DNA of 64,000 bases from positions 1 through 64,000 of the forward strand of contig DASVTZ010000126.1 in assembly GCA_036387335.1 (NCBI GenBank), in the 5' to 3' direction. Numbering within the stretch: the first letter of the stretch is position 1; each line of letters starts with the position of its first letter. Source of the DNA: Longimicrobium sp. (GTDB taxonomy: Bacteria; Gemmatimonadota; Gemmatimonadetes; Longimicrobiales; Longimicrobiaceae). Both the position numbers and the translations under genes were made by a program. The notes beneath the pieces are model-generated. The model was not told where the DNA came from and ran no database searches. It saw nothing but the letters and a program-made list of their open reading frames with translations. Of the stretch, positions 15,170 through 40,305 are shown one piece after another.

Positions 15170-15267
15170 CGTGCGTTCCGCGGGCGGTGGGTGCGCGCTC
15201 CGGTGCCCACTGCGGGCAAAGAACCCCACCCCGGCAAGATGCGGTCCGGGCCGGTGCGGTCCCCGCA

Positions 15268-16675: not shown

Positions 16676-16809
16676 GATCCGCAGCGGGTGTGGGCAAGTG
16701 CTCGCTCTGACAGGTGCAGGTGCTGGTTGCCGGCGTGCGCACACGGAGTCGCTTCCGCAAAGCCCGCGTTGCCGTATGCACCCTTCTCGAGCGTACGCAC
16801 ACGGGCGCG

Positions 16810-18006
16810 TCAACGACCCAGGGGCGTCCATCGCTCCAGCGACCCCATCGCGCCAAGCGCGTCGCGGTGGATCCCACGCGCAAGCTCGCTGAAGAACTCC
16901 GCGATGGGCGATTCCGACCGGCCGGCGGTTTGGAGTAGCTGGCGGAGGCAGAGCCCGAGCCCGCGGAGGTCCTGGTCTACGCTGGCGATGTAAGAGTCGT
17001 CGAACTGCTGCTTCAGCCAGTCCTCCGCACCTTCGGGGAAGAGGTCGATGGCCGAGCGCGGCACCTTTGTGCCGATCGGCCTAGAAGCGGGCGCCGCGAT
17101 GATGACTGCCTGGACACGTGCCCCGGTGCGGCCACGGGCGGGGCGGAAGACGAGCGTCCGTGGCGTGAGGACACCCACGCTCAGCGGCGGGTCAGATCGA
17201 TGCGCGGCGGCAAGGGAACCCAGCAGGCTGGACGCGATGTCGTAGAGCTTCACCTCGGCCTTCGCGGGCCACAGTGCTCCGCCGCCAGCCAGCAGCGACT
17301 CCAGTCCAATACCGATCGCCGGGCGGAGGGCGGCGTAGGGTCCGGCGTAGCCCTCCGCCTCAAGGGTTCCGCAATGAAGTACCTGCGCCGCAGCCCCCGG
17401 CAACGTGGCTTGCAGGCGGAGGAGGAGCGCACTCTCGGCCTCGAGCGCACCGAGGTGGGACGAGCGTCGTGGACTTCGGCCCCGCAGCAGGCGGAGCCAT
17501 ACGCGCTCCGGACCCGCCGCGGGGAATTCCGCGAGGTATCCCTGCAGCGCGCGCGACCGGTAGAGGTGGACCGGGTTCCCGTCTGCCCTGCGCACCAGAA
17601 CGGGACTCCAGGGTTCCCGCAACGGGGCATTGAGGAGGGGAGGGGGGCGCTGTATGGAAAAGAGGAGATCCTGCCCCGCGGGGCGCCGCCCGTATACACC
17701 CGGCGCGGGGATCACCTCACCCTGCTGAACGAGGCGGCCGGCTTCTATCCCGGGTGAGAGCAGCTGCGTCTGGAATATGGCCGGGTAGAGAGTACGCCAC
17801 CAGAAGCTCGTCCGCTGCTCCCACCGGAAGTACGGCCGGAGCCGGTCCGCTTCCAGCTGGGTAAGCGGGGGAATGTAGCTGGGCTGAGCCAAAACGAGCT
17901 GCACCTCGCCCGGCCTTCCCGTCGGTACGGCCTCCAGCGGTGTTACTACGTCGGTGCGGATCACCACGGTGGTGGCGTCTACTGGAAAAGCGTACCGGCG
18001 GGTCAC
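16810..18006 (-). CDS. Degenerate kinase-fold protein of the motor/cytoskeleton cluster
   Basis: 398 residues, last gene of the cluster, ATGA overlap with the preceding stop. Residues 1-150 are unrecognised (TVVIRTDVVTPLEAVPTGRPG and an aromatic-rich stretch). Residues about 160-380 follow protein-kinase order in degenerate form: ALEAESALLLRLQ (helix C-like), a hinge-like segment, LYDIASSLLGSLAAAH, GVLTPRTLVFRP where HRDLKPxNLL would be, PRSAIDLFPEG as activation segment, and SVDQDLRGLGLCLRQLL as helix F/G. The catalytic Asp and DFG are absent, so it would be a pseudokinase. This is inference from pattern order, not a firm domain call. Confidence 0.75.
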   Translation of the reverse strand: MTRRYAFPVDATTVVIRTDVVTPLEAVPTGRPGEVQLVLAQPSYIPPLTQLEADRLRPYFRWEQRTSFWWRTLYPAIFQTQLLSPGIEAGRLVQQGEVIPAPGVYGRRPAGQDLLFSIQRPPPLLNAPLREPWSPVLVRRADGNPVHLYRSRALQGYLAEFPAAGPERVWLRLLRGRSPRRSSHLGALEAESALLLRLQATLPGAAAQVLHCGTLEAEGYAGPYAALRPAIGIGLESLLAGGGALWPAKAEVKLYDIASSLLGSLAAAHRSDPPLSVGVLTPRTLVFRPARGRTGARVQAVIIAAPASRPIGTKVPRSAIDLFPEGAEDWLKQQFDDSYIASVDQDLRGLGLCLRQLLQTAGRSESPIAEFFSELARGIHRDALGAMGSLERWTPLGR

Positions 18007-18905
18007 GGTTCGTTCCGCCGGCGTGCGTGGCAGAGCCGGTGGTGCAGGGCGATGGTTTCGGCATATACCCAGCTCTCGTCGGCCGTCAGCGTCTCCGAGT
18101 CACCGCGGGAAGCGTACTGGAGCGCGAGCTCGGCGGAAGGATCTCGTTTGGCGGCGGAGAGCAGCGACTCGAGCGTCTGGAGATGCACTCCGGCGCCGTG
18201 CCGGAGCAGCCTGCGTGCCTCCCGGTGGAGAGGAGCCCGATCGATCCTGGAGAGGGTGAGGAGCATCTCGTACTGGAACTCGGGGCCGCCGGGGCTGTGC
18301 GTGACGTCAGGGCCCGCATCGGCCAGCCAGAGATTGATAGCCTCCTCCCGGGCCGCCAGCCGGGTGGCCCCCGTTCGCAGCCAGAAGCGAACCGCGTCCA
18401 GTGCGCGCAGCGAGCGGCAGGCGCCGATCCGCTCTTCAGTGACCCCGCTGACGGATTCCCATCTCGCCCAGGCGCCGGGAAGCGCTTCGGCGTATCGGAG
18501 CCGCATGCGGCGGAGCTCGGCGCGCAACTCCTCCACGACGTCGAGCAGGTGCACTATCTCTCGCGCGTGCCGTGCGAAGGCCGCCATCTGCGCGAGCGTG
18601 CTGTGAAGTGGTTCCTCGTGAAGACGCCACGGTCTCTCCTGCGCCAGGGTGGCGCGTGCGAGGCGCGCTTGCGGGCCGTCGAAGAGCGAAGCACCGCGAC
18701 GTGCGAGGAGAGCAAACCGGGACGCGATGCCTGGAGTGCCCGGCCAGCGCGCGGCCGCTCCGGCCCTGGCCTCGCAGGCGTCTGCCTCCGCCGCCCGCAC
18801 GATGCGCCAGCCCGGCCCCGCCTGCGCGCGTCCGTACGCGGACCAGCCATCCAGGATGAGAGGCGAGGGCGCCGGCTGCGCGTCGGGCGCTACTTCGGGC
18901 GGCAA
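18003..18905 (-). CDS. Alpha-helical protein of the cluster, unknown family
   Basis: 300 residues, soluble and helix-rich. Acidic and basic residues alternate (VVEELRAELRRMRLRYAEAL, RREARRLLRHGAGVHLQTL). No membrane segment, no known motif. It overlaps the end of the OmpA-like gene by 16 bases and the next gene start by 4, so it is co-translated. It could be an adaptor between the OmpA/MotA pair and the kinase-like protein. Confidence 0.75.
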   Translation of the reverse strand: MPPEVAPDAQPAPSPLILDGWSAYGRAQAGPGWRIVRAAEADACEARAGAAARWPGTPGIASRFALLARRGASLFDGPQARLARATLAQERPWRLHEEPLHSTLAQMAAFARHAREIVHLLDVVEELRAELRRMRLRYAEALPGAWARWESVSGVTEERIGACRSLRALDAVRFWLRTGATRLAAREEAINLWLADAGPDVTHSPGGPEFQYEMLLTLSRIDRAPLHREARRLLRHGAGVHLQTLESLLSAAKRDPSAELALQYASRGDSETLTADESWVYAETIALHHRLCHARRRNEP

Positions 18906-19573
18906 CCCGGCCTCCCTCCCGAGGAGCTCCCCGGGATTACGGGGTGGAGGAGGAGCTCGATCCTGCGGTCGCGGGCGTCCGTGGAGTCGTTGCGCACCCT
19001 TTGCCTCGTGTCACGCGGGAAGTACTCCCCCCGGCCGGAGGGGATGACGCTGCAGGGGTCCAGCCGGACGCTGTCGATCATGAACTCGGCGACCGTCGCG
19101 GCTCTCGCCGTGGAGATGCCCCAGTTCGTGAGCGCCGAGCGTCTGGCATACTGGGTACGGTCCGCATGGCCGACAACCTCGATCTCGCGGATCAGGCGGC
19201 CCAGTCTGGCGTCCCGCGTCACCTGTCCGATGGAATGCAGCGCGGCCCGACCCTGTGGCTTCAAGTCGACCAGCCCGCTACGGTTCCGCGGAAACGTGAC
19301 GTTCTCTTCGAGGATCACCAGCACGTCAACACCGACCTTCTCCACCGAGAAGGTCCGCTGGCGGTCGGCCAGGCTGTTCAACTCCGCGTACAGCCGGTCC
19401 ACCTCGGGCCCCTTGCCGCTCGCCTGCACGTACCCGAACGCCATCACTACGAAGAAAACCAGCATGATCATGCTGGTTGCGGCAAAGAGATCCGTGAATG
19501 CCGGCCACGGGCCTCCGTGATCCGTGCCGCTCGGGCCGCCAATCTCCAGCGACTCATCCTGATCGAAGCTCAT
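18890..19573 (-). CDS. OmpA/MotB/ZorB-like peptidoglycan-anchored motor subunit
   Basis: 227 residues. Start ATG 19573 (MSFDQDESLEIGG) overlaps the upstream MotA-like stop (ATGA). One N-terminal helix, AFTDLFAATSMIMLVFFVVM (about 27-46), has an Asp near its cytoplasmic end, as MotB and ZorB do for ion conduction. The C-terminal OmpA domain (about 75-215) has VVGHADRTQYARRSALTNWGISTARA, SGRGEYFP and NDSTDARDRRIELLL, i.e. the peptidoglycan-binding NxxLSxxRA-type helix and the terminal R-R-[IV]-[EV] strand. It pairs with the gene immediately upstream. Confidence 0.88.
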   Translation of the reverse strand: MSFDQDESLEIGGPSGTDHGGPWPAFTDLFAATSMIMLVFFVVMAFGYVQASGKGPEVDRLYAELNSLADRQRTFSVEKVGVDVLVILEENVTFPRNRSGLVDLKPQGRAALHSIGQVTRDARLGRLIREIEVVGHADRTQYARRSALTNWGISTARAATVAEFMIDSVRLDPCSVIPSGRGEYFPRDTRQRVRNDSTDARDRRIELLLHPVIPGSSSGGRPGCRPK

Positions 19574-21399
19574 CGCCGCGTGCCATTCTTCGACGTGCCG
19601 AACCAGCGCCGCCAGACCGGCCCCGCCAGGCGAGCTTCCAGCGACTCGACGGCACCTGACAGGCGGTCGAGGCTTTCGGCGGATGCCGCCACTGGGGAGC
19701 CGGGTTGCCGGCGAAGCTGTTCTTCCAGCAACTGCAAGGTGAGCGCGACGCGCTCCAGCACCGGAGCGCTCCCCCTGTCCGCGGCTCCGTTCATCGCGGC
19801 CTGCATCCCTTCCTCCACGGCACGGGTAACGCGCTCCATGGCATGCGCGCCCCCAAGTGAGTCCGCGGCTTCCGTCATCGCGGCCCGCACCCCCTCCTCC
19901 ACGGCTCCGGCTACGGCGGATGCACTCCTTCCCAGCTCGGCGGCGACGATCTCGGAAGTGTCGCGTCTCAGCGTTTCGAGGCTGGAGCGGTGCTGCGTCT
20001 CCGCCTGCGTAATCGCCGATGAGATCTGCCGCGCTTCGGGGAGCAGGAGATCCACCGACTCGCGTATCCCCCTGTACTCGTGCGCCGCCCGGCGCGCGGC
20101 ACGTGTGTGCCGGGTGGTCGCCTGCTCGATCTCCGCCAAGCGCGCGCGGATCGCGGAGGTAGCGCTCTCGGCAAAGGTTCCGAATGCCTCGCGCGACTGC
20201 CGGAGCTCGCCCGCCGCCGCGGAAAGCTGCGTTCCGGCTTCGGCAAGGGCGTCGCTCCGGTGCGCGAGCGTCCCCGCGATGCTCTCGTAAAGCGACGTGG
20301 CGTGCTGTACCGAGAGGGCGACTTCGGTGAGGTGGCGCTCCACTCCGTCCAGCCGCTCGCTGCTCTCCGACGCGAGCCGCTCGCGCTGCTCGCTCAGGAT
20401 CGTGTCGAGCGTTTCGGTGGTCTTGTCCAGCGAGGTCTCCACCGTGTGGCTGAGTCCCTCCAGCGAGTCGCCCAGCTTCTCCAGGTTGCTGGAGATTCCC
20501 TCCAGGTTTCCCGTGGCCTGCCGAAGCGCGTTCAGCGCCTCCGTGAAGTTGCTGGTGGCGACCGTCTGGCTCACCTTCTTGTACACGTACAGCGACGATG
20601 CCTGCTCCAGCCGCGCCAGCATGTTGTTGCGCCCCAGCCCCAGGCCGAACGAGGCGAGCCCCAGCGCGATGGAGCCCAGCAGCGCGCTGAGGTTGGCCCC
20701 GAACGCCCCCGACACCATGCGCAGCGCGTCCTGGAGCGCCGGAACTCCCCCCGTGCCCGCCGCCACTCCCAGCGCGTCCACCAGTGCGGGCATGGAGGCC
20801 TTCACTCCCACGAAGGTGCCGAGTACGGTGAGCAGCAGGAGCAGAGTGGAGATGTAACGAGCCGCGTCGCCCACGCCCGCCGCACGGGAAAGGGCAATGG
20901 CCCGCAGCTCTGGGCCGCGCAGCGTGTCGTGCGGCTGCGCGCCCTCGCTGGCCATGCGCAGCACGCGCAGCACGCGGTCGTCCATCAGCGTCTGCACCCG
21001 CGGCGCGGCCACGGCCCTCGCCTTCGCCTCTTCGAGGTGGAAGAGGGCAGTTTTGCCGCCCATGAGAAGCGCCCGGTCCCGGGGCGCCAGCAGCACCAGC
21101 TCCAGGTGATCGCGCCCCTTCGCCAGCACGAAGGCGATGTCCTCCTCTTCCCTGCGAAGCCAGGTCCAGTCCCTCGCGGCGCTCAGTACCAGCGCGGCGA
21201 CGGTGAGCACCACGCCCGCGACGTTGAGGATCTTCAGCAGGGCCGCGGTCTCGCCCCACCGCACGAGGCCGCTGGCGTGGAAGGCGGCAAGGCTGCCCCC
21301 GTAGACCAGCACGGCAAGCGCGATAAAGAGGAGAGCCACCTGGTCGCCGCGCCGGGGCGGCTGGAGGCGATCAGAATCCTGCGGGGGACTGCTCGTCAT
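19570..21399 (-). CDS. MotA/TolQ/ZorA-like channel with long coiled-coil tail
   Basis: 609 residues. Two N-terminal membrane helices (about 21-41 and 54-75), a cytoplasmic loop, then two helices that match the proton-channel pair of MotA/ExbB/TolQ: ARYISTLLLLLTVLGTFVGV (about 179-198) and GANLSALLGSIALGLASFGL (about 233-252). From about 270 to 560 the sequence is a heptad-rich coiled coil (SNLEKLGDSLEGLSHTVETS and so on), the architecture of ZorA in Zorya systems, where the tail reaches far into the cytoplasm. The OmpA-like partner follows with an ATGA overlap. Confidence 0.87.
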   Translation of the reverse strand: MTSSPPQDSDRLQPPRRGDQVALLFIALAVLVYGGSLAAFHASGLVRWGETAALLKILNVAGVVLTVAALVLSAARDWTWLRREEEDIAFVLAKGRDHLELVLLAPRDRALLMGGKTALFHLEEAKARAVAAPRVQTLMDDRVLRVLRMASEGAQPHDTLRGPELRAIALSRAAGVGDAARYISTLLLLLTVLGTFVGVKASMPALVDALGVAAGTGGVPALQDALRMVSGAFGANLSALLGSIALGLASFGLGLGRNNMLARLEQASSLYVYKKVSQTVATSNFTEALNALRQATGNLEGISSNLEKLGDSLEGLSHTVETSLDKTTETLDTILSEQRERLASESSERLDGVERHLTEVALSVQHATSLYESIAGTLAHRSDALAEAGTQLSAAAGELRQSREAFGTFAESATSAIRARLAEIEQATTRHTRAARRAAHEYRGIRESVDLLLPEARQISSAITQAETQHRSSLETLRRDTSEIVAAELGRSASAVAGAVEEGVRAAMTEAADSLGGAHAMERVTRAVEEGMQAAMNGAADRGSAPVLERVALTLQLLEEQLRRQPGSPVAASAESLDRLSGAVESLEARLAGPVWRRWFGTSKNGTRR

Positions 21400-21415
21400 C
21401 GTTCGGCTACTCTGT

Positions 21416-22555
21416 CTACGGCCGGGCGCGCGCGCGGCCCTTCTGCCGCACGTGTCCCTGGCTGGAGGTGGGATCCCAGTCGATCACGGCGGGCGCGAGC
21501 GTATCGTACGCGCCGGTCCCGCCGCCCTCCAGGTGAAAGGCGGTTTCCAGCAGGGCGGCGGTGAGGTCGGCGAACTTGAAGTTGGGGTTGATCCATGCTT
21601 CGGCATGGTCCGCTCCCTCACGCCACCGGATCTCGATCATAGGGCGATGCGAGTTGTTGAGCCGCACCACCTCGTCTTTGGAAAGGGTCCCCTTGAGGAT
21701 GCGGACACCCTCCGCGGCCGCACCTTGCCCCGTCCGAGACGGCGCGGCGGTGACCTGCGTCGGGTGTGGAACGTCCTGCCCGTGCCGGGCGTCGAACTTT
21801 TGTTGAAGCGCATGCACCTCCTCGAGCGTCTCTTCCACGCAGCGCTTGAGCGCCCGCACCTCATCCACCAGGCCGTTGAACGCGGGCCAGTCGGCCTCCG
21901 GCTCGGGGTCTGGCGTCCAGGCGGAACGCTGCGGGCGGTCCGCCTCGGAGAGCGAGCGGCGGGTCTGCGACCCGCGTAGCTCCTCCACCTCGTATCGCAG
22001 CTGATTCAGTGCGCGCGACAGGCGGAAGGCGGCTACGAGGCCCGCCCCGGCCAGCACGAGGGCGGCCCACCCCGGCCATCCACCGCCACGCGCTCCGCTG
22101 TCCCTCTGCGCGCTGGTGGGCTGGAGTGTGGCACCCCCGGAGGCTACCCCGGGGGCGGTGTCGCCCCGCGTCCGCCCGGGGGGAGCGCCCTTGGGCGAAT
22201 CCGCCTCCGTCTGCCCCTTGGACGCGCCCACACCCTTGCTGCGCCCACCTGGTTCCTGTTTCCCTCGAGCGCCGGCCGGGCGCGCCCCGGGGGGGGTGTC
22301 GCGCTGCGCTCCTCCCCGCGGCGCGTCCCCAGGTGCGTCGACCTCCACCCCGGCCACGGTCGCGGCCCTGCTTTTGTCGCGCTCAACCACGCCCCGCTCC
22401 ACGGCGTCTTCCTCGGTGGTGGCCGAGATCCCCGGGGCGTCGCCGGACAGCGCCAACCTCGCGCTCCACCCCACTATCCCGGCGGCCACCACGAATATCA
22501 GGATCAGCGGGACGGACGATGCGTGGCTGGACCGATACCTCTTCTTGTAGGGCAT
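21416..22555 (-). CDS. Bitopic or two-helix membrane protein with coiled coil and novel C-terminal domain
   Basis: 379 residues. A basic start (MPYKKRYRSSHASS) precedes a helix (about 15-36). A Gly/Pro/Arg-rich low-complexity linker (about 40-155) leads to a second helix (GWAALVLAGAGLVAAFRLS) and a coiled coil (ALNQLRYEVEELRG, LVDEVRALKRCVEETLEEV). The C-terminal 95 residues form a conserved-looking domain with RPMIEIRW, NPNFKFADLTAALLETAF and YDTLAPAVIDWDP. It lies 3 bases after the actin/Hsp70-like gene, so it may couple that ATPase to the membrane. The domain was not recognised. Confidence 0.78.
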   Translation of the reverse strand: MPYKKRYRSSHASSVPLILIFVVAAGIVGWSARLALSGDAPGISATTEEDAVERGVVERDKSRAATVAGVEVDAPGDAPRGGAQRDTPPGARPAGARGKQEPGGRSKGVGASKGQTEADSPKGAPPGRTRGDTAPGVASGGATLQPTSAQRDSGARGGGWPGWAALVLAGAGLVAAFRLSRALNQLRYEVEELRGSQTRRSLSEADRPQRSAWTPDPEPEADWPAFNGLVDEVRALKRCVEETLEEVHALQQKFDARHGQDVPHPTQVTAAPSRTGQGAAAEGVRILKGTLSKDEVVRLNNSHRPMIEIRWREGADHAEAWINPNFKFADLTAALLETAFHLEGGGTGAYDTLAPAVIDWDPTSSQGHVRQKGRARARP

Positions 22556-22558
22556 GGG

Positions 22559-25500
22559 TCAATCCACGAGGGAGCGCTCGAGTTGGCGGAGGCTCGCCGC
22601 CGCTTCCACCCCGAAGATCGAGACCGTGTCGAGCTCCTGGGCCGCGATATCGGCGGCGAGCCTCCGCTTCACCTGGTTGTCGAAGAACACCTCCGTGCAC
22701 TCTGCGAGCGCGCTCCGAACGCGACCCGCGAGTGTCCCCCACTTCTTGTCCACCTTGTTCAGCTCTTCCAGCGCATCGACGAAGGCGGTGTTGAAGCGGG
22801 AGATCTCCCACTCGCCGAAGGGCTGGCTGTACGAGAGCTCGATTACCTGCTCGCGACTGAGCGCGGAGGCGTCGAGCATCTCGGGTGCGGTAAGGGAGCG
22901 GGTCTCGCCGCCATCCTGGCCGGGAACGGAGACGTCTTCCCCGACCGGCTGGAACGACGGGATGTCATCGTCGGCGGAGAATGGGTCGTCCCGCAGCAGC
23001 CCGAGCACCACCTCCTGCTTGGGCTTGCTGCTCGAACTAATCTTCAGGTCGCCCGGCAGCGGCTGGCCGTATCCCGCCTCCAGCACGCGCTGGAAGAGGC
23101 GCGTGTACGGCTTGGACAGCGGAGACTGGTTCCAGTGCTCGAACTGCGTCAGCCAGTTGAGGTAGCTCGCGCCGTTCCCCGCGAAGAAGAGCGCGTCCGG
23201 CGGGCTGCCCTGCGACGGCTCCAGCGAGCGGAGGCGCAGGCCCACGTTGTAGAGGATCGCGCTGTAGAAGTAGGCGATGCACGCCTGTACGCTCATGAAC
23301 CACGGCTCGCCCGCCAGCGCCCCGCAGTGCTCCGCGAACCAGGGCTGGCGAACCAGGTAGGTGAAGCGCGTGTGCTCGGTGGGGTAGCGCCGCAGGACGT
23401 TGAGGGGCGCGCCGCGAAGCCCGTTCCTTTCGGCCCAGCTCTGGAGTCGTCCATAGATCGAGGGCTCCGCCCCGTCGCCCGCGATCAGGTCGCGCCCCCC
23501 GAACAGCATGGACATGCGAAGCACCGGCCCGCCTTTGGCGAAGGCGGTGATGTCGGTGGTGCCGCCTCCCACATCTGCCGTCAGCTTCATGGTCTTCGCC
23601 TCCACCGAGAAGCTGGAGCGCGAGGCCGGGTCCGAGCCGAAGAAGAGCATCGATGCGGTGCTCTCGTCCAGGTAGCGGAGGGGGAGCGCGGGCGTGCTCC
23701 CCCCGGGCTGCCCCTTGGCGCGAAAGCTCCGGATGGCGACCTCCCACTCCTGGCGCGTGGAGGCTCGGCGGTTGCGCGAGAACGCGATCGGGTACGACAC
23801 CCTGAATTCCATCTCTTCGGTGCGGGCGCCACGGGCCAGTGCCTCGGCGTGCACCACCTGCAGGATCTGGTGGAGGAAGAGCCGCGTCAGCCGGCGCGTG
23901 TCCGCGCCGCCGCCCCCCCACTTGAGGTCGCCCACCAGCACATTGTTCTGCTGCTGCCCTCCGTCGCCCCCGATCTCGCCGCTGAACGGGATGTTGGCGG
24001 TGAAGGCGGGAAGATCGGCGAGAGGGCTCTCTGGTCCCGCGCCACGGCTCTTAAAGATGACGGTCGAGAACGGCTCCCCCTTGAGCTCGGCGGGAAAGAA
24101 GAAGGTGTCAAAGTAGGTGCCGGCGCTTTCGGCCTCGTCCCCCCCGGTCAGGTCGAACCGGGTAGCATGCGACACCTGCAGAGGGCGCGGAGCGGAATCC
24201 TGCGGGTCGACGTGCGCAACGACGGTATTGGAGGTGCCGAAGTCGATCGCCACTGTCCACGCGGGGAACGTCGGCTCCGGAACGCTCCGCAGCCGGGGGA
24301 GCACCACCCCCTCGGCCGCCTGGGAGCGGAAGTGGCGGCTGCGGAGCCGGATCGCCTCCGCCGGACGCCCGAAGTGGTAGAGCACCGTGCTCTGGTCGCG
24401 GCGGATGCTCTGCGCCGTCACACGCTCGCCGCCCGCGCCGATATCCACGTCGAACTCCTCGCCGGCGTCGCCGCCCTCCAGGTAATGGATCAGGTAGAAG
24501 TCGCTCCATCCCGCCGCGCTCCCCTCCGGCTTGAACCCGGGCCACAGGCTCAGGTGCGACGTCGCGCCGGTGAAGCCGTCGTAGGTACGCTGCACCGCCA
24601 CCGTCCCCCCCCGGGTGGGGACGGCGAGCGTAAACCTCACCTGTGGCCGGTCTCCCCCCGAGAGGATCTTGCAGGTAAGCATCCCCGGCACGTCTTGGGC
24701 CCGGAAGAAGTCGAAGAAACGCTCCTTGAGAGGGAGCAGGATGCGGGAGGCGAGCGCCGGGTCGCCCTCCAGGGCCGCGCCGTACACGCGGTCGGCGTGG
24801 AAGGGCGCGTCGACGATTAGAAGCTCCTCGGACAGGAAGTCGCTCTCGGGGAAGATCCAGGGTTGCTTCCATGCCGTGCCGGGAAGGACCTGGCGGTCAC
24901 TCTGCGCCTCGGCCACGGTGCCCCTGGGCCGCGGGAGCCAGGGGAAGTAGAGGTCCTGCGAGCTTCGGCCGCTGTTGTCCAGCACCAGGGGGATGTCTCC
25001 GCCCGAAGGCGCGAGGCGTGTGGGCTGGAGCGAGAGCGTGCTCCCGAGCGACGCTTGGGCAAGCCGGTGCAGCACCACGCCCGGCACCGGTTCCATCTGG
25101 GTCTCGGCGTACGCCAGGGGCTCGCTCGGCAGATCCACGTCGGCGAGCTGTGCCTTGAGAAGGCTCTTCAGCTCTTGGAGCTCGGTGAGCGCGCCCAGCG
25201 AGCTCGCGTCCAGCTGCGGGATCAGCCGGTCGCGCACGTACTGCCCAAGGAGCACCGGCCGCTCGGCCAGCGGGCGCAGCGGGCGCGACCCGCCGTAGTA
25301 CCCGGGAACGGACGCGTGCTGGGCTTCGGGCGTGAAGAACAGCGTGAACGGCGAGAAGGCGAAAAGAATGGGACCGTCCTGCGCCAGCCCGTTGAACACC
25401 ACCGTGACGTCCGTGAGCGTGGTGCGCGGCTGCCGCTCCACCACCGGCGCGAGGTCGCGCAGCGCGGTGACGAACCGCCCGACCCCCCGGCTGCGCGAAG

Positions 25501-25843
25501 CCGCCGCGCAATCGTGCAGGTTGTCTATGGAGATGGTGCGGGAGCGGAGCGAAACCCCAAAGATGAACGCCTGGAACAGGACGATCTCCATCGAGTCCAG
25601 GATGTCGTTGAGCGCGTCTTCGTGGAAGGGGTGCCCCTGGTCCACGATCGCGTCGCGAAACAGCTGGACGCGCGCCCACGGGTTCGGTATCGACGAGATC
25701 CGTCCCCGCTTCGCGCGATCCTCGGCCTGGCGCAGGTCCACCTTGGTCAGCTCGTCGGGCAGCTTGATCTCGTGCCACTCTCCCGCCGGGGCGCGCGTTA
25801 CGCCGGCGTCTTTCACGAGCGGGTGCAGGAGCAGTCGGCTCAT
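22559..25843 (-). CDS. Giant actin/Hsp70-fold ATPase of the cluster
   Basis: 1094 residues. The first 525 residues match nothing I recognise. At 533-540 begins the ASKHA core: IDFGTSNTVVAHVD (phosphate-1), EFRVSYPIAFSRNRR (connect region), LDESTASMLFFG, TADVGGGTTDITAF at about 755-768 (phosphate-2) and LFFAGNGASYLNWL at about 885-898 (adenosine motif). So the ATP-binding elements of Hsp70/actin-like proteins are intact. There is no substrate-binding domain of DnaK type; the tail (about 900-1094) ends in ELDTVSIFGVEAAASLRQLE. It sits between the tubulin-like gene and a membrane coiled-coil gene. Confidence 0.85.
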   Translation of the reverse strand: MSRLLLHPLVKDAGVTRAPAGEWHEIKLPDELTKVDLRQAEDRAKRGRISSIPNPWARVQLFRDAIVDQGHPFHEDALNDILDSMEIVLFQAFIFGVSLRSRTISIDNLHDCAAASRSRGVGRFVTALRDLAPVVERQPRTTLTDVTVVFNGLAQDGPILFAFSPFTLFFTPEAQHASVPGYYGGSRPLRPLAERPVLLGQYVRDRLIPQLDASSLGALTELQELKSLLKAQLADVDLPSEPLAYAETQMEPVPGVVLHRLAQASLGSTLSLQPTRLAPSGGDIPLVLDNSGRSSQDLYFPWLPRPRGTVAEAQSDRQVLPGTAWKQPWIFPESDFLSEELLIVDAPFHADRVYGAALEGDPALASRILLPLKERFFDFFRAQDVPGMLTCKILSGGDRPQVRFTLAVPTRGGTVAVQRTYDGFTGATSHLSLWPGFKPEGSAAGWSDFYLIHYLEGGDAGEEFDVDIGAGGERVTAQSIRRDQSTVLYHFGRPAEAIRLRSRHFRSQAAEGVVLPRLRSVPEPTFPAWTVAIDFGTSNTVVAHVDPQDSAPRPLQVSHATRFDLTGGDEAESAGTYFDTFFFPAELKGEPFSTVIFKSRGAGPESPLADLPAFTANIPFSGEIGGDGGQQQNNVLVGDLKWGGGGADTRRLTRLFLHQILQVVHAEALARGARTEEMEFRVSYPIAFSRNRRASTRQEWEVAIRSFRAKGQPGGSTPALPLRYLDESTASMLFFGSDPASRSSFSVEAKTMKLTADVGGGTTDITAFAKGGPVLRMSMLFGGRDLIAGDGAEPSIYGRLQSWAERNGLRGAPLNVLRRYPTEHTRFTYLVRQPWFAEHCGALAGEPWFMSVQACIAYFYSAILYNVGLRLRSLEPSQGSPPDALFFAGNGASYLNWLTQFEHWNQSPLSKPYTRLFQRVLEAGYGQPLPGDLKISSSSKPKQEVVLGLLRDDPFSADDDIPSFQPVGEDVSVPGQDGGETRSLTAPEMLDASALSREQVIELSYSQPFGEWEISRFNTAFVDALEELNKVDKKWGTLAGRVRSALAECTEVFFDNQVKRRLAADIAAQELDTVSIFGVEAAASLRQLERSLVD

Positions 25844-25858
25844 CGCGTTGTTCCTGGA

Positions 25859-27427
25859 TCAGGTGGTGGCGTACCACTCGGTGACGAAGAGGCGGGTCCC
25901 GGCTTCCATGTAGCGCAGGAGGCCGGGAAGCCCCGCCCCCTTGGGAACACGCGCGCGGTTGTACCACGAGAATATCTCCGCCAGCGACGCGAGCTGGTCC
26001 TCGCCGCCCTTCCCAAAGATCCCCAGCCGTTTCGGCTTCTGCCGCGGTGCGAAGCCCGCTAGGCACTTGTCCACGGGCGGGAGACGGAACTCCGTCTCCG
26101 GGTTGTCTCCCCCTGACCTCGCGTACTCGTCGGGCGTCCGGATCGCCCGCCCGCTGGCACCCTCAAACGTCACCAGACGGACGGGGACGTAGTTTTCCGA
26201 CACGGCACGCAGGTAGCCCCACACAGAGCCGAAATACCGCCCCAGCGCGTCGAGCGCCGCGCTCTGGGTGCGGACGAACTCCGGCGCGAGGGCGATCTCG
26301 TGGACCCAGGCCTGGCTGCGCAGCTCGTCGATGATGGCCTGCTGCTCCGCGCCGCTCCGCGTGGGGCCAAAGTACTGGAGGAAGAAGTTGGCGGCGACGA
26401 GGAACGCCTGCAGATCGCGCCGCTCCTCGGTCCCGAGCGGAAGGTCGCTCCACGTGGGCTGCTGGCCTGCCACGGTGCTGTAGCGGACGCGTGTGGGAGC
26501 GCCGGGCTCGTGCGGGCGCTGCGCGAAGTCCAGCGCCGCCAGCGCGGCGTAAAGCTCCACCACGTGCGGATCGTTCTTTTGGCCCGCGCCCCCGGCGGAG
26601 TACAGGGGGCGCGGCCGAGGGAGCGACTGGTCGTCGCCGATGACGTAAAGCGCTCCGTACTCCGAGTGGCCGCGGACGTAGGTGGGGAGAGCCGCCGCCG
26701 TATTGCGCAGGAACACCTCGCTGTTTGGCTTCAGCCTTCCATCCTGCCGCTCGCCCTGGCCGGGTTCCTCCAGGGAGTAGTAGGGCGTCACGAGCGCGGC
26801 GCCGAGCGCCGCCCGCTGGATTCCCTCCGCCGCCAGCACCTTTGCCAGCACGGGAAGCGCCGACGCTCCCGTGCCCCCGAAGATGGAGCCGGCCACGAAG
26901 AACGCGGCCGAGGTGTCGCCGCGGGCGCTGCTCATGAACTGGCGGAAGAACTCCGACTCCCGGATTCCGTGCATCAGGATGGAGCCGATGGAAGGGTTTC
27001 CGCGGAACCCTTCGCGGAGTGGCTCCTTCTGCTGCCCCGGCGAGAAGAGGAGGTCCAGGAGGGTGGCTGCGTCCGCGCAGTCGCCCGTCATCCGCTGGCG
27101 CTCGGTGAAGCGCTCCAGCGTCACCTGTCCCACATCGTCCGTGCTTCCGCTCCCCAGCGGCGACCACACGGATTCGGCCGGGGCCGTGCGGATCAGCGCC
27201 GTGCGGAAGAACCCCTGCTCCGGGTTGCCGAACGCCTCCCGCACGAGGGCGTACTGGCGCGTCAGCTCACGCGCGCGGGCTACCGCGGGGTTCGCCGCGT
27301 CCGCGTCGATCAGCATCACCGCTAGCCGCGCCGGGCCGAGCCCCGCGGCGCAGAGAGCGAGGAGCGGCTCCACCGACAGTGCGCCGGTTCCCCCCACGGC
27401 GAGGTAATAAAGCGTGTTGGTCGACAT
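25859..27427 (-). CDS. Tubulin/FtsZ-superfamily GTPase-like protein
   Basis: 522 residues. YYLAVGGTGALSVEPLLALC at 7-26 is the first glycine loop of tubulin-like folds. MLIDADAANP at 38-47 fits loop T2. AGSIFGGTGASALPVLAKVL at 179-198 contains the tubulin signature GGTG[AS]. This pattern is that of Tubulin_2/FtsZl-type proteins, not of cell-division FtsZ. Published gene-context work (Makarova and Koonin) tied the FtsZl-2 family to vWA and OmpA-family proteins in a predicted membrane-remodelling system, which agrees with the neighbours here. No membrane segment. GTP binding likely, polymerisation unknown. Confidence 0.87.
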   Translation of the reverse strand: MSTNTLYYLAVGGTGALSVEPLLALCAAGLGPARLAVMLIDADAANPAVARARELTRQYALVREAFGNPEQGFFRTALIRTAPAESVWSPLGSGSTDDVGQVTLERFTERQRMTGDCADAATLLDLLFSPGQQKEPLREGFRGNPSIGSILMHGIRESEFFRQFMSSARGDTSAAFFVAGSIFGGTGASALPVLAKVLAAEGIQRAALGAALVTPYYSLEEPGQGERQDGRLKPNSEVFLRNTAAALPTYVRGHSEYGALYVIGDDQSLPRPRPLYSAGGAGQKNDPHVVELYAALAALDFAQRPHEPGAPTRVRYSTVAGQQPTWSDLPLGTEERRDLQAFLVAANFFLQYFGPTRSGAEQQAIIDELRSQAWVHEIALAPEFVRTQSAALDALGRYFGSVWGYLRAVSENYVPVRLVTFEGASGRAIRTPDEYARSGGDNPETEFRLPPVDKCLAGFAPRQKPKRLGIFGKGGEDQLASLAEIFSWYNRARVPKGAGLPGLLRYMEAGTRLFVTEWYATT

Positions 27428-27430
27428 GGC

Positions 27431-27928
27431 CTAAAAGCGGAAAGGGAACCGCGAGTTGTTGATCCACGTGGCGCGGCGCGTCCAGCGGGCCACGAGGGAA
27501 AGGAGCCAGCTGAAGAGCACGAAGAGGATCAGAGACTGGACGAGTGCCACCGAAGCTCGCAGGAGGGCGTACTGCGACGGAATGCGGGTGGTGGCCTCGC
27601 CGTAGCTGCACCCGGCGGTGCTGACGGGTACGAGGCTGAGGTAGACGTAGCAGACCAGTGCGGTGACACCGGCACCCGCCACGAGCCACTTCCACCAGCG
27701 GGCTTTGAACTGGTGCCCCATCGTCCGCGTCTCGTATGCCCCGAGCACCAGCAGGATCGCTAGGAGCAGGGTAATGCCGGTCGCGACGCCGAAGGCGGAG
27801 ACCCAGTCGGCTTCGGCGATCACGGGACGCGCCGTGGAGATCCCGCCCTCGGGGGATACGGGGCAGACCGTGAGATCCGCGAACATCTGAGGGCGCGCGG
27901 CCCACCAGTGGATCAGCTCTTTGGACAT
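27431..27928 (-). CDS. Small integral membrane protein of the cluster
   Basis: 165 residues with three hydrophobic helices (about 42-63 VSAFGVATGITLLLAILLVL; 80-101 WLVAGAGVTALVCYVYLSLV; 125-147 LVQSLILFVLFSWLLSLVA) and a basic C-terminus. The N-terminal MSKELIHWWAARPQMFADL is cytoplasmic or amphipathic. It is 3 bases from the tubulin-like and 3 bases from the vWA lipoprotein genes. It could be the membrane dock of the tubulin-like protein. No family recognised. Confidence 0.75.
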   Translation of the reverse strand: MSKELIHWWAARPQMFADLTVCPVSPEGGISTARPVIAEADWVSAFGVATGITLLLAILLVLGAYETRTMGHQFKARWWKWLVAGAGVTALVCYVYLSLVPVSTAGCSYGEATTRIPSQYALLRASVALVQSLILFVLFSWLLSLVARWTRRATWINNSRFPFRF

Positions 27929-27931
27929 GGC

Positions 27932-29251
27932 TCAGTAAAGTGCGACGTAGAAACCCGCCAGGCGGGCCGGCTCGGCCTGCAGCTGGGAGAAGAGGGTGCT
28001 CAACCCGTACGTGCGCGTGGCGTCGCCCTGCCGCGGGGCATCGAAGCGGGCCAACCACGCAGGCCTTCCCGTGGAGACCAGCTCCACGCGATAAGCGCTC
28101 GGGGGTATACCGGGCCGGGTACGGATCTCCAGTGGCACTCGGATCCGGCTCCCGTCCACGACGGGAGCGCTCGGCGCGACCCACGCCTCCGTTGCGTCCA
28201 CGTCCCGCCACTGCGCCCCGGCTCCGCAAAGGGGCGACCGGCTCACCCGCGTGCGGAGGGTGTCGGTCGCGGTGAACCGGGCCAGGCTTCCGGCGACGTC
28301 GAACCCCACCTCGGTCTGGACCACCGCTCGCGTAGCGGGAGGCGAAGCGTGCAGCAGAAGCCGGAGAGGACGTCCGGCCCCCGCCGGGTAGGGCGCGAAC
28401 TCTCCGGGTGTCCCGACGAACCGCGTTGCGCCCACGCGGGTCCGCACCAGGGTGTCGGACAGGCTGGGAGAGACGTGCAGGTATGGCATCGCGCCCATCA
28501 GCCGCGGAAGCACGGCGGGTGCGGCCGAGCCCGGCAGGAAGGCGAAGACGTAGAGGGGGCAGCGGAGGTTGGTGCGGGGGGTGTCCGTCCAGCACCCGGC
28601 GCTGTCACTTCGCACCTGCTGGAAGCGAGCCTCGACCGCGCCGACCGCGAATACGGAACCGATTGCCCCGTTCCCCGGCGAGCCTGACCACTGCTGGGCG
28701 AGCCGGCCGAGCCGCTGGTACTGCGCGATCGCCGAGGCCCCGTCCCCGCGTCGCCCGTCGGTGACGACGAGGTGCACCGACGCCCGTCGCGAATCCGCCT
28801 CCACCGCGTCCAGCACGTCCTCGAGCTGTGTGTTGTTGTCGCCGTAGAACTCCTGCCGTACCAGCTGCGCTATGACGTCCTGGTTCGTCGGCGCCGCCAC
28901 CGGCCGGAGCGCGCTGCCAAACCCGTATACCTGTAGGCGCGGGAGGGAAGCCAGCCGGCTCAACACTGACCGGAGGCTGGAACTGCCGGGTGCAACGCCG
29001 AACCCGGTGGAGAAATCCCGGTCCAGATAGCCAGCCATACTCCCCGAACGGTCCACGTACAGCCTCACGGGGAACGACTGACGCGTGATCTGCACGGTAT
29101 GTTCGGGTCGCAGTGGAGATGCCACCCTGTCCATTCGGGATAGCGCCCCCTGGAGCGTGGCACAGGCCTGCTCCGCGTTCGGCTGCGGGCATGCCCCCAA
29201 GCAGGCCAAACTCGCCACGAAAAGGAGCTGGCGATTCAGAGTTGTGCTCAT
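27932..29251 (-). CDS. vWA-domain lipoprotein
   Basis: 439 residues. A lipoprotein signal peptide ends LACLGAC (lipobox; acylated Cys about 21). VRLYVDRSGSMAGYLDRDF at about 62-80 is a full MIDAS DxSxS motif; later SVHLVVTDGRRGDG supplies the MIDAS Asp. A C-terminal beta-rich part (about 300-430) is unassigned. vWA domains bind proteins through a metal; here it would act at the outer face of the inner membrane or the outer membrane. First gene of the tightly packed part of the cluster. Confidence 0.87.
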   Translation of the reverse strand: MSTTLNRQLLFVASLACLGACPQPNAEQACATLQGALSRMDRVASPLRPEHTVQITRQSFPVRLYVDRSGSMAGYLDRDFSTGFGVAPGSSSLRSVLSRLASLPRLQVYGFGSALRPVAAPTNQDVIAQLVRQEFYGDNNTQLEDVLDAVEADSRRASVHLVVTDGRRGDGASAIAQYQRLGRLAQQWSGSPGNGAIGSVFAVGAVEARFQQVRSDSAGCWTDTPRTNLRCPLYVFAFLPGSAAPAVLPRLMGAMPYLHVSPSLSDTLVRTRVGATRFVGTPGEFAPYPAGAGRPLRLLLHASPPATRAVVQTEVGFDVAGSLARFTATDTLRTRVSRSPLCGAGAQWRDVDATEAWVAPSAPVVDGSRIRVPLEIRTRPGIPPSAYRVELVSTGRPAWLARFDAPRQGDATRTYGLSTLFSQLQAEPARLAGFYVALY

Positions 29252-29322
29252 CTATGCCGTAGCCCCGCGGAGCAGGGGTGTGGAGCGGGTGACGGGAGGA
29301 GTAAAGCGACTGCGGCACTCCC

Positions 29323-29350
29323 AAGGTAAAGATCCAAACAAATGCCGCAA
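29323..29350 (-). promoter_or_regulatory. Possible internal promoter before the vWA lipoprotein
   Basis: Minus strand TTGCGG (29350-29345), 16 bases, TACCTT (29328-29323). It lies in the only sizeable gap of the cluster (29252-29592) and would give a leader of about 65 bases. The match to consensus is moderate. Confidence 0.35.
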
Positions 29351-29407
29351 GAGGGTGCTTCAACGCGCATCCGCCTTGACGCGTTCAGGTGCGGCCGCGG
29401 GGTTGCT

Positions 29408-29593
29408 TCAGCGGGGAGCCAGACTGGCGGTTGGGCCTCTGCGCATACAGCGTTCGCAGACGGTCGCAAAAATGGTGTGCCCAGCATGGGCGATGGGTCC
29501 GCAGGTGACGTCTCGGTCGGCGGCCCGCCCGGAGCGGACGCCAGTCTCCTCCAAGCCGTCCGGCCCGGGGGCGGCGTCGACATCTGCCAGCAT
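29408..29593 (-). CDS. Possible small metal-binding protein
   Basis: 61 residues from ATG 29593, which overlaps the stop of the membrane protein 29593-29988 as TGATG. CGPIAHAGHTIFATVCERC has the spacing C-x5-H-x2-H-x6-C-x2-C of a possible zinc site. No strong Shine-Dalgarno, but coupling through the overlap is plausible. It may instead be a non-coding leader for the next gene; antisense frames are no better. Confidence 0.3.
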   Translation of the reverse strand: MLADVDAAPGPDGLEETGVRSGRAADRDVTCGPIAHAGHTIFATVCERCMRRGPTASLAPR

Positions 29594-29988
29594 CACGAAT
29601 CACGTACCGCCGTTCGATCAGCCCGACGCCGTACACCGACTTCGTCGACCTGCCCGGGTACGTCGTCGTCGGGAGACTCTCCTTGCGGCTCCTGCGCCAA
29701 TCCCCCGGGCGGTTGAGGGGAATCCGGAGATGTCGGCACCGGTTCACCGCGATGGAGGAGAGCTCCGAGCATGACTACGAAAAACGGAGGCCGGAACTCT
29801 CCCTCGGCGGCCCTGGCGCGGAGCAGCATCGAGCAGGCACTCAAGAAAACCAGAATAAAGACAATCAGCACCGCTTCGACCTGCCCGATTCCCGCAAGCC
29901 CGTACCCCGCCCGTGCCAGAGCCGCCCATCCGATCATCACGGCCACGCATGCCAGCAGTACTGCCAAAGTCTGCTTGAGGCGAATCAT
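29593..29988 (-). CDS. Small membrane protein, two helices
   Basis: 131 residues: helix 1 LAVLLACVAVMIGWAALARA, helix 2 VEAVLIVFILVFLSACSMLL, then a hydrophilic Pro/Asp-rich tail. ATG 29988 has GAGGTGTGAG upstream. It is 45 bases behind the large vWA membrane protein gene. No family recognised. Probably a small subunit associated with that protein. Confidence 0.65.
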   Translation of the reverse strand: MIRLKQTLAVLLACVAVMIGWAALARAGYGLAGIGQVEAVLIVFILVFLSACSMLLRARAAEGEFRPPFFVVMLGALLHRGEPVPTSPDSPQPPGGLAQEPQGESPDDDVPGQVDEVGVRRRADRTAVRDS

Positions 29989-30033
29989 CTCACACCTCTA
30001 CAGAAGGGGGACGGCCCTAGTCGCCATTCGCGC

Positions 30034-32049
30034 TCAAGGCATGAAGTAGGTGCTGGCAACGTCGAGTACCCCCTGATGAAACGATAGTAGGATGCCGGTG
30101 CCGATAAAGGCGAGCGCCACCTGGACCAGCGCCGTGGGGCCATTCGCGTCAGGGGTAACCGCGTCCATCGAGATCATGCAGCACAGAAGCAACCACGCCC
30201 CAGTGGTGAGGATGTTCACTGCGGCAGTGGCCAGACCAAGGTGATGAGTCCATGCTTTCACCGCAATGAATCGCCGGATGTATGGCAGTTTCACCGCCAT
30301 CATTTCAAGCCCGATGGCAGCCAGAAAGCAGAGTGCCGCCGCTATGAAGAAGGGCTGCAGGGGTTTCCTCGCCGTTATCGGAGCGGGAAAGCAGTCTTCT
30401 GCGCCGCAGTCGTAAAGCTCCGCATCGTCCAGCAAGAGAACGCCTACGTTTACCGCCTCTGCAGAGCTGATCCGCGTATTCACGCGAAAGCATGGCGTCC
30501 GCTGCTCCGGACAGCTTCGATCCTCCGTCCAGACGAGAGGAACCGGGAATCCTCTCACCATGAGCCGAGCTTCACGTTTGGATTGGGATTGCGAGGCAAC
30601 GCCACCCCGCAGTTGCCAGACACCAGGTTTTAGAAACGAGCGAATCAACACGAAGTTGCTGGCCGGATAAGCACGGAAAGGCGCGACAGGTATGCGGAAC
30701 CGCTGGACATATTTCATGGAGTCCGTGAATACCACCGGCCACAACGTACTGCCTTCCATGATTTTGGGAGTAAAGAGATCGTCAAGGGCAAGACATCCGG
30801 TAGTCCCAACCGGGACCAGGGAGTCGTCCTTGTTTAGTACCAGGGAACCATCGGCGGTATGAGAGGCATTCCATGCCACGTACAACCGATCACCGGACGG
30901 TACAGACCGCGGCCACCGTCCTGTTGTTGCCAGATGCGTGAGAAGCGTGCGGTGAGAGCATGAATCAGAGGCTGTTCTGACGATGAACCCGTGGCGGAAC
31001 GCCGGGGAGTGCGACGTCCCCTCAAATGAATAGCGCCTCGCAGGCTGGTAGATCGCAGATATCCCCTCGATCATCCGATAGCGATCCAGCCAATCGGCCG
31101 GCTCTTGTTGCGGGTTCGCATGATAGAATACGCATCTGTCGCCGGCTGCGCCGATCTCTCTCAGCCCTTTGAAAGCGTCGGGCAAGCCCAGCACGTGGCA
31201 CGTCGAGTTGGAGAGGGGCGCGCGGAGAAATAGGTCAGCGGCCGGTTCGCGCCGACTTGGAAGCCCGGTAACATAGCCAAGTGCGGCTGGAAAGACCGCG
31301 TTCGGAGAGAAGAGGAGCAGATCGGTCACTGCCCCGCTCGAATATGGGAAATACCGGCCGGAGAATGTACGTCTCAGCAGGCTGTCGCCCCGCAGCGTGC
31401 TCAGATCCACATCCCAATAATCGTCCCTAACCACCCTTCTCGGCTGCGGCCAGTACGTGGAGTCGATCGCAAGGCGTGCATCTCCCCGAAAGCCAAGGAC
31501 GTAAAGATCGACGCTCTTCTGTGCTTCACGGACGGCAGACCGGAACTCCTCTACGACAAGTTTCACCTCGTCGTCGGAAACATCCTCCGACGTCTCCTTG
31601 TTCGGCGAGAGCGATCCATCCGTAATGAGGACCACTGCGGGCCGACACGGATCATCCTGGAAGCGTTTCTGAATCGATCGTATGGCTCCGGCAAGGTCGC
31701 TGTCGTGCGTGGGGTACTTAAGGATCTCGCCTACGATCCTGTTCGCCTGGACAGGGCGTTCGCCGGTGACTTCTTCGATCCGTTCGACCTCGTTCTCCCT
31801 GGCACCAGGGAGCCGGAAGACGACGAGTCGGTCAGAGGGACGTAACGCGGAATGGAACGCTGAGAGGATCGCTGGATAGGCGTTCCGGGTGGAGGCGATC
31901 GGAGTGCTGAGAGATTGGTCGAACACAAGTGCGAGGCGGAGGGGCCCTTCCGGGCAAGGGTGCGGCTCGGCTTGCCCCGACACGGCTGACGGGGAAAAAA
32001 GCAACAGCCAGAGCGTGAACGCACCGAGGCGGGTACTTGGATCGCGCAT
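30034..32049 (-). CDS. Exported vWA-domain protein with C-terminal membrane helices
   Basis: 671 residues, first gene of the cluster. A signal peptide (MRDPSTRLGAFTLWLLLFS, cleavage after VSGQ), then a vWA domain: LRLALVFDQSLSTPIAS (MIDAS DQSLS, about 38-54) and AVVLITDGSLSPN at about 138-150. A long periplasmic region with several cysteines (CHVLGLPD, CSHRTLL, CPEQRTPC, CGAEDC) may form disulfides. Three membrane helices end the protein (about 568-589, 605-627 and 640-660). It would work as a cell-surface or periplasmic sensor anchored in the inner membrane. Confidence 0.85.
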   Translation of the reverse strand: MRDPSTRLGAFTLWLLLFSPSAVSGQAEPHPCPEGPLRLALVFDQSLSTPIASTRNAYPAILSAFHSALRPSDRLVVFRLPGARENEVERIEEVTGERPVQANRIVGEILKYPTHDSDLAGAIRSIQKRFQDDPCRPAVVLITDGSLSPNKETSEDVSDDEVKLVVEEFRSAVREAQKSVDLYVLGFRGDARLAIDSTYWPQPRRVVRDDYWDVDLSTLRGDSLLRRTFSGRYFPYSSGAVTDLLLFSPNAVFPAALGYVTGLPSRREPAADLFLRAPLSNSTCHVLGLPDAFKGLREIGAAGDRCVFYHANPQQEPADWLDRYRMIEGISAIYQPARRYSFEGTSHSPAFRHGFIVRTASDSCSHRTLLTHLATTGRWPRSVPSGDRLYVAWNASHTADGSLVLNKDDSLVPVGTTGCLALDDLFTPKIMEGSTLWPVVFTDSMKYVQRFRIPVAPFRAYPASNFVLIRSFLKPGVWQLRGGVASQSQSKREARLMVRGFPVPLVWTEDRSCPEQRTPCFRVNTRISSAEAVNVGVLLLDDAELYDCGAEDCFPAPITARKPLQPFFIAAALCFLAAIGLEMMAVKLPYIRRFIAVKAWTHHLGLATAAVNILTTGAWLLLCCMISMDAVTPDANGPTALVQVALAFIGTGILLSFHQGVLDVASTYFMP

Positions 32050-40259: not shown

Positions 40260-40305
40260 CGCGGTTGCCGCCGACCGGCCGTTCAACAACCCACAACACC
40301 TGCCC

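Follow-up and report, generated by a model that had tools for sequence, protein, structure and literature searches.

A conserved nine-gene cluster in Longimicrobium encoding a tubulin-fold protein, a giant actin/Hsp70-fold ATPase and a Zorya-like ion motor

Can a tubulin-fold protein, an actin/Hsp70-fold (ASKHA) ATPase and an ion motor, encoded side by side on one strand, be parts of a single machine, and what would such a machine do? The question is raised by a gene cluster in a contig of Longimicrobium sp. (GenBank assembly GCA_036387335.1, DASVTZ010000126.1), of which positions 1 to 64,000 were analysed; this 64,000-nucleotide stretch is referred to here as the window. The original prediction, made from the sequence alone, had assigned about eleven genes at 16810-32049 to the cluster. 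The minus-strand cluster is contiguous as predicted, but the conserved unit comprises nine genes (16810-29251, minus strand), tightly packed with intergenic gaps of at most 16 bp or short overlaps, including ATGA. They are transcribed in the order vWA lipoprotein, three-transmembrane (3-TM) protein, tubulin-fold protein, ASKHA ATPase, transmembrane (TM) protein, MotA/ZorA-like subunit, OmpA/ZorB-like subunit, helical protein and pseudokinase-like protein (Table 1). All nine are present in identical order at locus L023.

Table 1 Features of the minus-strand cluster in the window.
Feature	Position	Strand	Remarks
vWA lipoprotein, 439 aa	27932..29251	-	First gene of the unit; signal peptide, lipobox-like LGAC, MIDAS motif DRSGSM
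Small inner-membrane protein, 165 aa, ~3 TM	27431..27928	-	Position, size and 3-4 TM kept in nearly all loci
Tubulin/FtsZ-fold GTPase-like protein, 522 aa	25859..27427	-	T1-like GGTG, T4-like SIFGGTGAS; profiles, AlphaFold2, Foldseek
Giant ASKHA (actin/Hsp70-fold) ATPase, 1094 aa	22559..25843	-	Motifs, PDB profiles, AlphaFold2, Foldseek
TM protein, 379 aa	21416..22555	-	Two TMs, the first N-terminal, separated by a low-complexity linker; last 120 residues conserved
ZorA/MotA-like ion-channel subunit, 609 aa	19570..21399	-	TMs within residues 1-260, then long coiled-coil-like tail (cytoplasmic)
ZorB/MotB-like partner, 227 aa	18890..19573	-	Single TM, ion-site Asp28 (PWPAFTDLFAA), periplasmic OmpA domain
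Helical protein, 300 aa	18003..18905	-	TTG start; homologue in L023
Pseudokinase-like (degenerate kinase-like) protein, 398 aa	16810..18006	-	Homologue in L023; kinase label from residual motif resemblance
Open reading frame, 111 aa	29248..29583	-	Probably no gene; GC by codon position 0.66/0.70/0.64
TM protein, 131 aa	29593..29988	-	GC at third codon positions 0.65; probably outside the conserved unit
Second extracytoplasmic vWA protein, 671 aa	30034..32049	-	Signal peptide, DQSLS, C-terminal TMs; GC at third codon positions 0.67; lineage-specific

Conservation of the unit and co-inheritance of its central pair

A scan of GTDB genomes with the ASKHA profile yielded 50 loci, and adjacent tubulin and ASKHA genes were found at 60 loci when those reached through the tubulin are counted. 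Loci L066-L072 were excluded, as their match was confined to the surroundings of generic ASKHA motifs. The order vWA, 3-TM, tubulin, ASKHA is kept in 55 of the 60 loci, and all six genes including the MotA-OmpA pair are found in 32. The loci come from Gemmatimonadota, Bacteroidota, Acidobacteria, Aminicenantes, Leptospiraceae, Longimonas and cyanobacterial plasmids. All of them belong to diderm groups. One locus (L046), from a 'Lachnospiraceae' metagenome-assembled genome, falls inside Bacteroidales sequences on both the tubulin and the ASKHA tree and is probably a binning error; Firmicutes are therefore not claimed. The constancy of gene order across such distant phyla argues that the gene products work together.

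The two central genes are inherited together. The system is present in seven of 298 genomes of the window's own phylum; five have both proteins at 1e-10, and in the two others, which are divergent, local profiles place both genes side by side. ASKHA was detected in eight of 296 Bacteroidota genomes, all eight of which carry the tubulin (hypergeometric p = 7e-15); a ninth tubulin-positive genome has a 1681-residue protein and no ASKHA. Among 72,556 plasmid records, six match the tubulin, and the same six match the ASKHA. The hypergeometric p is at most 3e-14 in each set, where related genomes or records are not independent. Every genome with ASKHA in both phylum samples has the tubulin, and the trees of the two proteins have 34 of 54 splits in common. 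The system is sparse, at 2-3% of the genomes sampled in the two phyla. A second, diverged copy occurs in the window's own genome (contig C109, locus L013), and relatives at the genus and family level carry syntenic copies. Scattered homologues, or profile searches that fail to return the tubulin, ASKHA and MotA/OmpA folds, had been named beforehand as outcomes speaking against the cluster; both were looked for and neither was seen.

Conservation also sets the limits of the unit, and across phyla it rules out chance or mis-called open reading frames as an explanation. Two extracytoplasmic vWA proteins had been counted in the set. The 439-residue protein is conserved, whereas the 671-residue one has no homologue at any fetched locus, nor does the neighbouring 131-residue TM protein. 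Because of this and of the atypical GC content at third codon positions (0.65-0.67), both genes were left out of the unit and are probably not machine parts; they look like a recent arrival or an unrelated operon. The 111-residue reading frame is probably not a gene because its GC pattern over codon positions is non-coding. A 789-residue frame covering the OmpA-like gene is an upstream read-through, the real gene being the one listed in Table 1. A scan for promoters and terminators found no more sites than in shuffled sequence.

Folds and catalytic residues

The GGTGALS and FGGTGAS motifs that first pointed to a tubulin are both present in the 522-residue protein, and the fold is borne out by Pfam profiles over the family, an AlphaFold2 model and Foldseek. 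The window protein alone matches PF00091 at 0.008 and PF13809 (Tubulin_2) at 0.037, under the curated cut-off. Among 26 family members, PF00091 is found in 15 and PF13809 in 13, with a best value of 2e-10 (PF13809, 2.2e-10). The model (pLDDT 79.6, pTM 0.88; alignments for structure prediction were rebuilt without rows from plasmid loci) retrieves FtsZ or tubulin in all 50 of the 50 PDB matches listed. The best of these stands at 1.8e-3; as the E-values are modest and the TM-scores low, we regard the protein as a distant member of the family. Its GTP-site motifs are conserved. Across loci these proteins are mostly ~460-580 residues long, and the longest helix of the model has 22 residues. NCBIfam has no model matching this protein or the ASKHA.

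The 1094-residue protein contains the predicted DFGTSNT, DVGGGTTD and GNGAS motifs, and over 32 diverse members D534FGTSNT, E727S, D757VGGGTTD and G889NG are invariant or nearly so. Its actin/Hsp70 fold is supported by profile searches against the PDB (MreB, 8.7e-8; Hsp70, 2e-4) and by Foldseek of the AlphaFold2 model (MreB, 9e-9; also DnaK, actin and ParM). The phosphate 1, connect 1, phosphate 2 and adenosine motifs that are hallmarks of the ASKHA superfamily are thus found within the expected fold. The ATPase core spans about residues 525-900 and is preceded by an N-terminal region of ~520 residues to which no fold is assigned. A single-sequence Pfam search with this protein gave nothing useful, and Pfam, NCBIfam and PADLOC hold no model for it or for the whole gene set.

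The predicted MotA/ZorA-like channel was recovered with a profile of the family's TM part, which matches the solved ZorA chain 8qyd_A at 5e-8 and TolQ at 0.004. The PADLOC ZorA model matches the tail (residues 283-505, 1.5e-5). Single-sequence Pfam matches were coiled-coil noise, but the TM-only profile finds ZorA, and we reject the idea that the label is such an artefact. In the TM3 motif LLTVLGTFVGV, T195 and G198 are invariant. The smaller subunit, foreseen as an OmpA/MotB/ZorB-like partner, matches PF00691 at 2.3e-8 and the PADLOC ZorB model at 1.1e-7. Its family profile matches the ZorB-type chain 8vvn_B (1.7e-23) and ZorB of 8qyd (6e-16); structures 8vvn and 8vvi stem from a Zorya study (PMC11890865). 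W23 and D28 are invariant, D28 lying after the invariant Trp in the TM segment. Of 32 motor loci, all have the TM Asp motif and 31 the Thr motif; residues of these classes line the ion path of 5:2 motors (PMC12204202). The OmpA-type domain is predicted to bind peptidoglycan.

That the motor is tied genetically to the tubulin and actin/Hsp70 folds is strongly supported, with the restriction that the MotA-OmpA pair lies downstream of the core in only 33 of the 60 loci. Presence of the motor switches just 3-5 times on the tubulin and ASKHA trees, so that it behaves as a stable add-on module of the vWA-3TM-tubulin-ASKHA core. A second motor operon is located just upstream of the tubulin-ASKHA operon at two loci (L017:1-2088 and L018:19540-19899). 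It has a MotA-like gene in L017, a ZorB-like OmpA partner in both (ZorB, 2e-21 in L017), and two conserved uncharacterised proteins of 389 and 812-919 residues.

Across phyla, the vWA family retains D165 and a MIDAS-like [DE]xSxS, with Glu as the usual choice in Bacteroidota, and the lipobox-like Cys (C30) is present in at least 90%. A vWA homologue is encoded upstream of the tubulin in 55 of the 60 loci. Because the profiles for the vWA and 3-TM proteins were built up within these loci, their E-values are inflated; the support for both proteins comes from constant position, size and features. The 379-residue TM protein was found by tblastn in L023 (39%, 5e-18) and also in L021, and a TM protein of ~200-630 residues follows the ASKHA in most loci. 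L023 also has homologues of the helical protein, at the matching place (28%, 6e-18), and of the pseudokinase-like protein (34%, 2e-18), for which a Pfam scan gave no match. At three other loci (L016, L018 and L019), a single protein of 727-911 residues follows the OmpA gene. Its N-terminal part resembles the helical protein and its C-terminal part the pseudokinase-like protein, in matches that rest on weak two-sequence profiles. As these matches are colinear within one protein, they suggest a fusion of the two.

Relation to described systems and possible function

Which known system does the unit resemble? The original prediction invoked a link of the FtsZl-2 family to vWA and OmpA proteins. 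The family in question is FtsZl1, which occurs with vWA and OmpA proteins, kinases and GTPases and is predicted to act in membrane remodelling, whereas FtsZl2 is without conserved neighbours (Makarova and Koonin 2010, PMC2875224). The window unit is similar to FtsZl1 (Tubulin_2, PF13809) systems in having a divergent tubulin/FtsZ fold together with exported vWA, OmpA-domain, TM and kinase or kinase-like genes. A Tubulin_2-related fold and, at 55 of the 60 loci, a vWA gene were found among the FtsZl1 features tested. The coiled-coil architecture and a GTPase were not: most described FtsZl1 proteins, of ~1000 residues, carry both a helical C-terminal domain and a long coiled coil, whereas the window tubulin has ~500 residues and no long coiled coil, and the P-loop GTPase partner that is frequent there, though not universal, is absent from the unit in Pfam and NCBIfam scans. 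The ASKHA ATPase and the ion motor are further differences; Hsp70 and MotA are not named in the main text of PMC2875224. The 1681-residue tubulin-like protein mentioned above (L112 in G592, Bacteroidota) lies behind a 3-TM protein. It is probably a classical long FtsZl1, the small TM neighbour being common to it and the present system. A 2023 survey puts Tubulin_2 proteins aside as divergent (PMC9871819).

With Zorya the unit shares a MotA-like subunit with a long tail and a MotB-like subunit with a TM Asp and an OmpA domain, and among solved structures its motor subunits match ZorA and ZorB-type chains best. Zorya needs the ZorA tail, ion flow and peptidoglycan binding by ZorB (PMC11890865). 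The window motor differs in standing behind vWA, 3-TM, tubulin and ASKHA genes. None of the window products scanned with PADLOC matched ZorC, ZorD, ZorE or a type III partner. Membership of Zorya proper or FtsZl1 proper is rejected on the features tested, and the cluster is best filed near the FtsZl1-vWA-OmpA kind, equipped with an ASKHA partner and a motor module of the Zorya type. The GAP1-N2/GTPase-centric systems (Kaur et al. 2020, PMC7159879) likewise combine tubulin-like and vWA proteins, with HSP70 in some variants. They are centred on TRAFAC-clade GTPases, however, none of which was found in the unit by Pfam or NCBIfam; MotA is unmentioned in that paper, and the 1094-residue ASKHA is unlike DnaK. 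In vWA force-transducer and TolQ-like motor clusters (PMC12204202), vWA is genetically tied to 5:2 ion motors, as here, but serves as motor partner or TonB-like arm, and tubulin is unmentioned. The claim that the full set is undescribed agrees with our searches: open-access full-text searches for the combination, with subscription journals outside their scope, gave no description.

All the above lead us, tentatively and at somewhat under an even chance, to read the nine genes as one inner-membrane machine that joins a tubulin-ASKHA pair to a Zorya-like motor, its likeliest use being envelope surveillance. The analysis shows which genes make up the set and in what order, their folds and catalytic-type motifs, the residues of the motor and co-inheritance; localisation, a physical complex and a transfer of torque are inferred. 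The tubulin-fold GTPase and the giant ASKHA ATPase would form an obligate pair in the cytoplasm, probably anchored at the membrane by the 3-TM protein and the neighbouring TM protein. This pair may communicate with the vWA lipoprotein, a periplasmic protein that retains its metal-site-like loop. The ZorB-like subunits would hold peptidoglycan while ions passing Asp28 and the Thr195 ring rotate the ZorA-like pentamer (5:2 motor). The anatomy suggests that the long cytoplasmic tail would act on the tubulin-ASKHA pair, handing over signal or torque and so reporting the state of the envelope; the helical and pseudokinase-like proteins may be adaptors. For trigger and outcome, our guess is that a disturbance of wall or membrane (e.g. 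by phage) alters the state of the motor or the vWA protein and switches tubulin-ASKHA assembly. Among functions, an envelope-surveillance or stress machine appears the most likely. A bolder version, possible but doubtful, is that a rotary ion motor anchored to peptidoglycan is directly coupled to an NTPase core of two cytoskeletal folds, making a categorically new machine, sparse across several phyla, in which the motor is an exchangeable module for power or sensing.

Several observations weigh against envelope surveillance with a built-in motor. The motor pair is missing downstream in 27 of the 60 loci (a few of these being truncated contigs), so the core can act without it. No clear sign of a defence-island context emerged: PADLOC on 144 neighbour and 144 control proteins gave few distinct matches on either side, several of them likely housekeeping look-alikes, and defence families showed no clear excess among the neighbours over the control regions. 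Pfam shows mixed, mostly ordinary neighbour genes, and no toxic or nuclease effector was recognisable among the operon products in Pfam, PADLOC and NCBIfam scans. A defence role is possible but not supported by the genomic context. The sparse distribution, the second diverged copy, plasmid carriage and CHAT/caspase neighbours in some relatives would fit an accessory role in conflict or stress.

The company of tubulin-like, vWA and OmpA proteins, the conserved GTP-site motifs and the weak but real PF13809 matches are also what one would expect of a membrane-remodelling or vesicle machine as proposed for FtsZl1 (PMC2875224). Here a tubulin polymer would bend the inner membrane, with the ASKHA as regulator and vWA and OmpA proteins as outer-face anchors. 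We consider this unlikely. Simple membrane bending leaves the conserved ion motor with its ZorA-like tail unexplained; FtsZl1 itself is without an experimental function in the literature searched. Ranked after it, and likewise unlikely, is an energised transport, secretion or surface-motility machine, in which the motor drives export, gliding or force, vWA is the periplasmic transducer and tubulin and ASKHA are loading NTPases. 5:2 motors do power secretion, gliding and TonB/Tol, and a force-transducing role linked to such motors has been proposed for vWA proteins (PMC12204202); the vWA family here keeps its lipobox-like Cys almost without exception. But the unit, at the loci examined, has no recurring outer-membrane channel, adhesin or secreted substrate, the long MotA-like tail should be cytoplasmic, as in ZorA, and the motor is missing in many loci.

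Least probable of the readings is a conflict or immune system of the Kaur et al. 2020 type, with NTPase assemblies setting the threshold of an effector. Such systems bring tubulins together with vWA proteins and, in some of their variants, HSP70 (PMC7159879), and genes of the CHAT or caspase (C14) family stand beside the vWA gene in L013 (13629-14288), L015 (8362-9902), L016 (190-1698) and L018 (13053-14606). These are candidate effectors, but they are confined to one genus-level lineage and defence families are not clearly enriched. Moreover, no TRAFAC/GAP1-associated GTPase gene was found in the unit and the ASKHA is not a DnaK-type HSP70 with GrpE.

The unit offers a way to test what some of the FtsZl1-like (Tubulin_2) proteins do, a question that dates from 2010. 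It also suggests that Zorya-type motors are modules driving, or sensing for, quite different cytoplasmic partners; we found no description of any system in which a rotary motor powered by ions is joined to a tubulin-like as well as an actin-like NTPase. Culturable hosts (Pontibacter, Rufibacter, Hymenobacter and Pedobacter) make genetics feasible.

Other genes in the window

Directly after the pseudokinase-like gene lies a gene for a DprA-like Rossmann protein (16118-16831, minus strand), matching PF02481 at 2.7e-6, just under the cut-off; its start is ambiguous. Also on the minus strand, and downstream of the operon, 13406-15229 encodes a Ser/Thr protein kinase with a long proline-rich tail (Pkinase, 1.3e-31). 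On the plus strand, 37083-43159 is a block with low GC at third codon positions (~0.62-0.67) that looks like an acquired nucleotide-related island. It encodes an M78/IrrE-type peptidase, a kinase-like and adenylosuccinate synthetase protein, a DUF7002 protein, a radical SAM protein and a dCTP deaminase-like protein.

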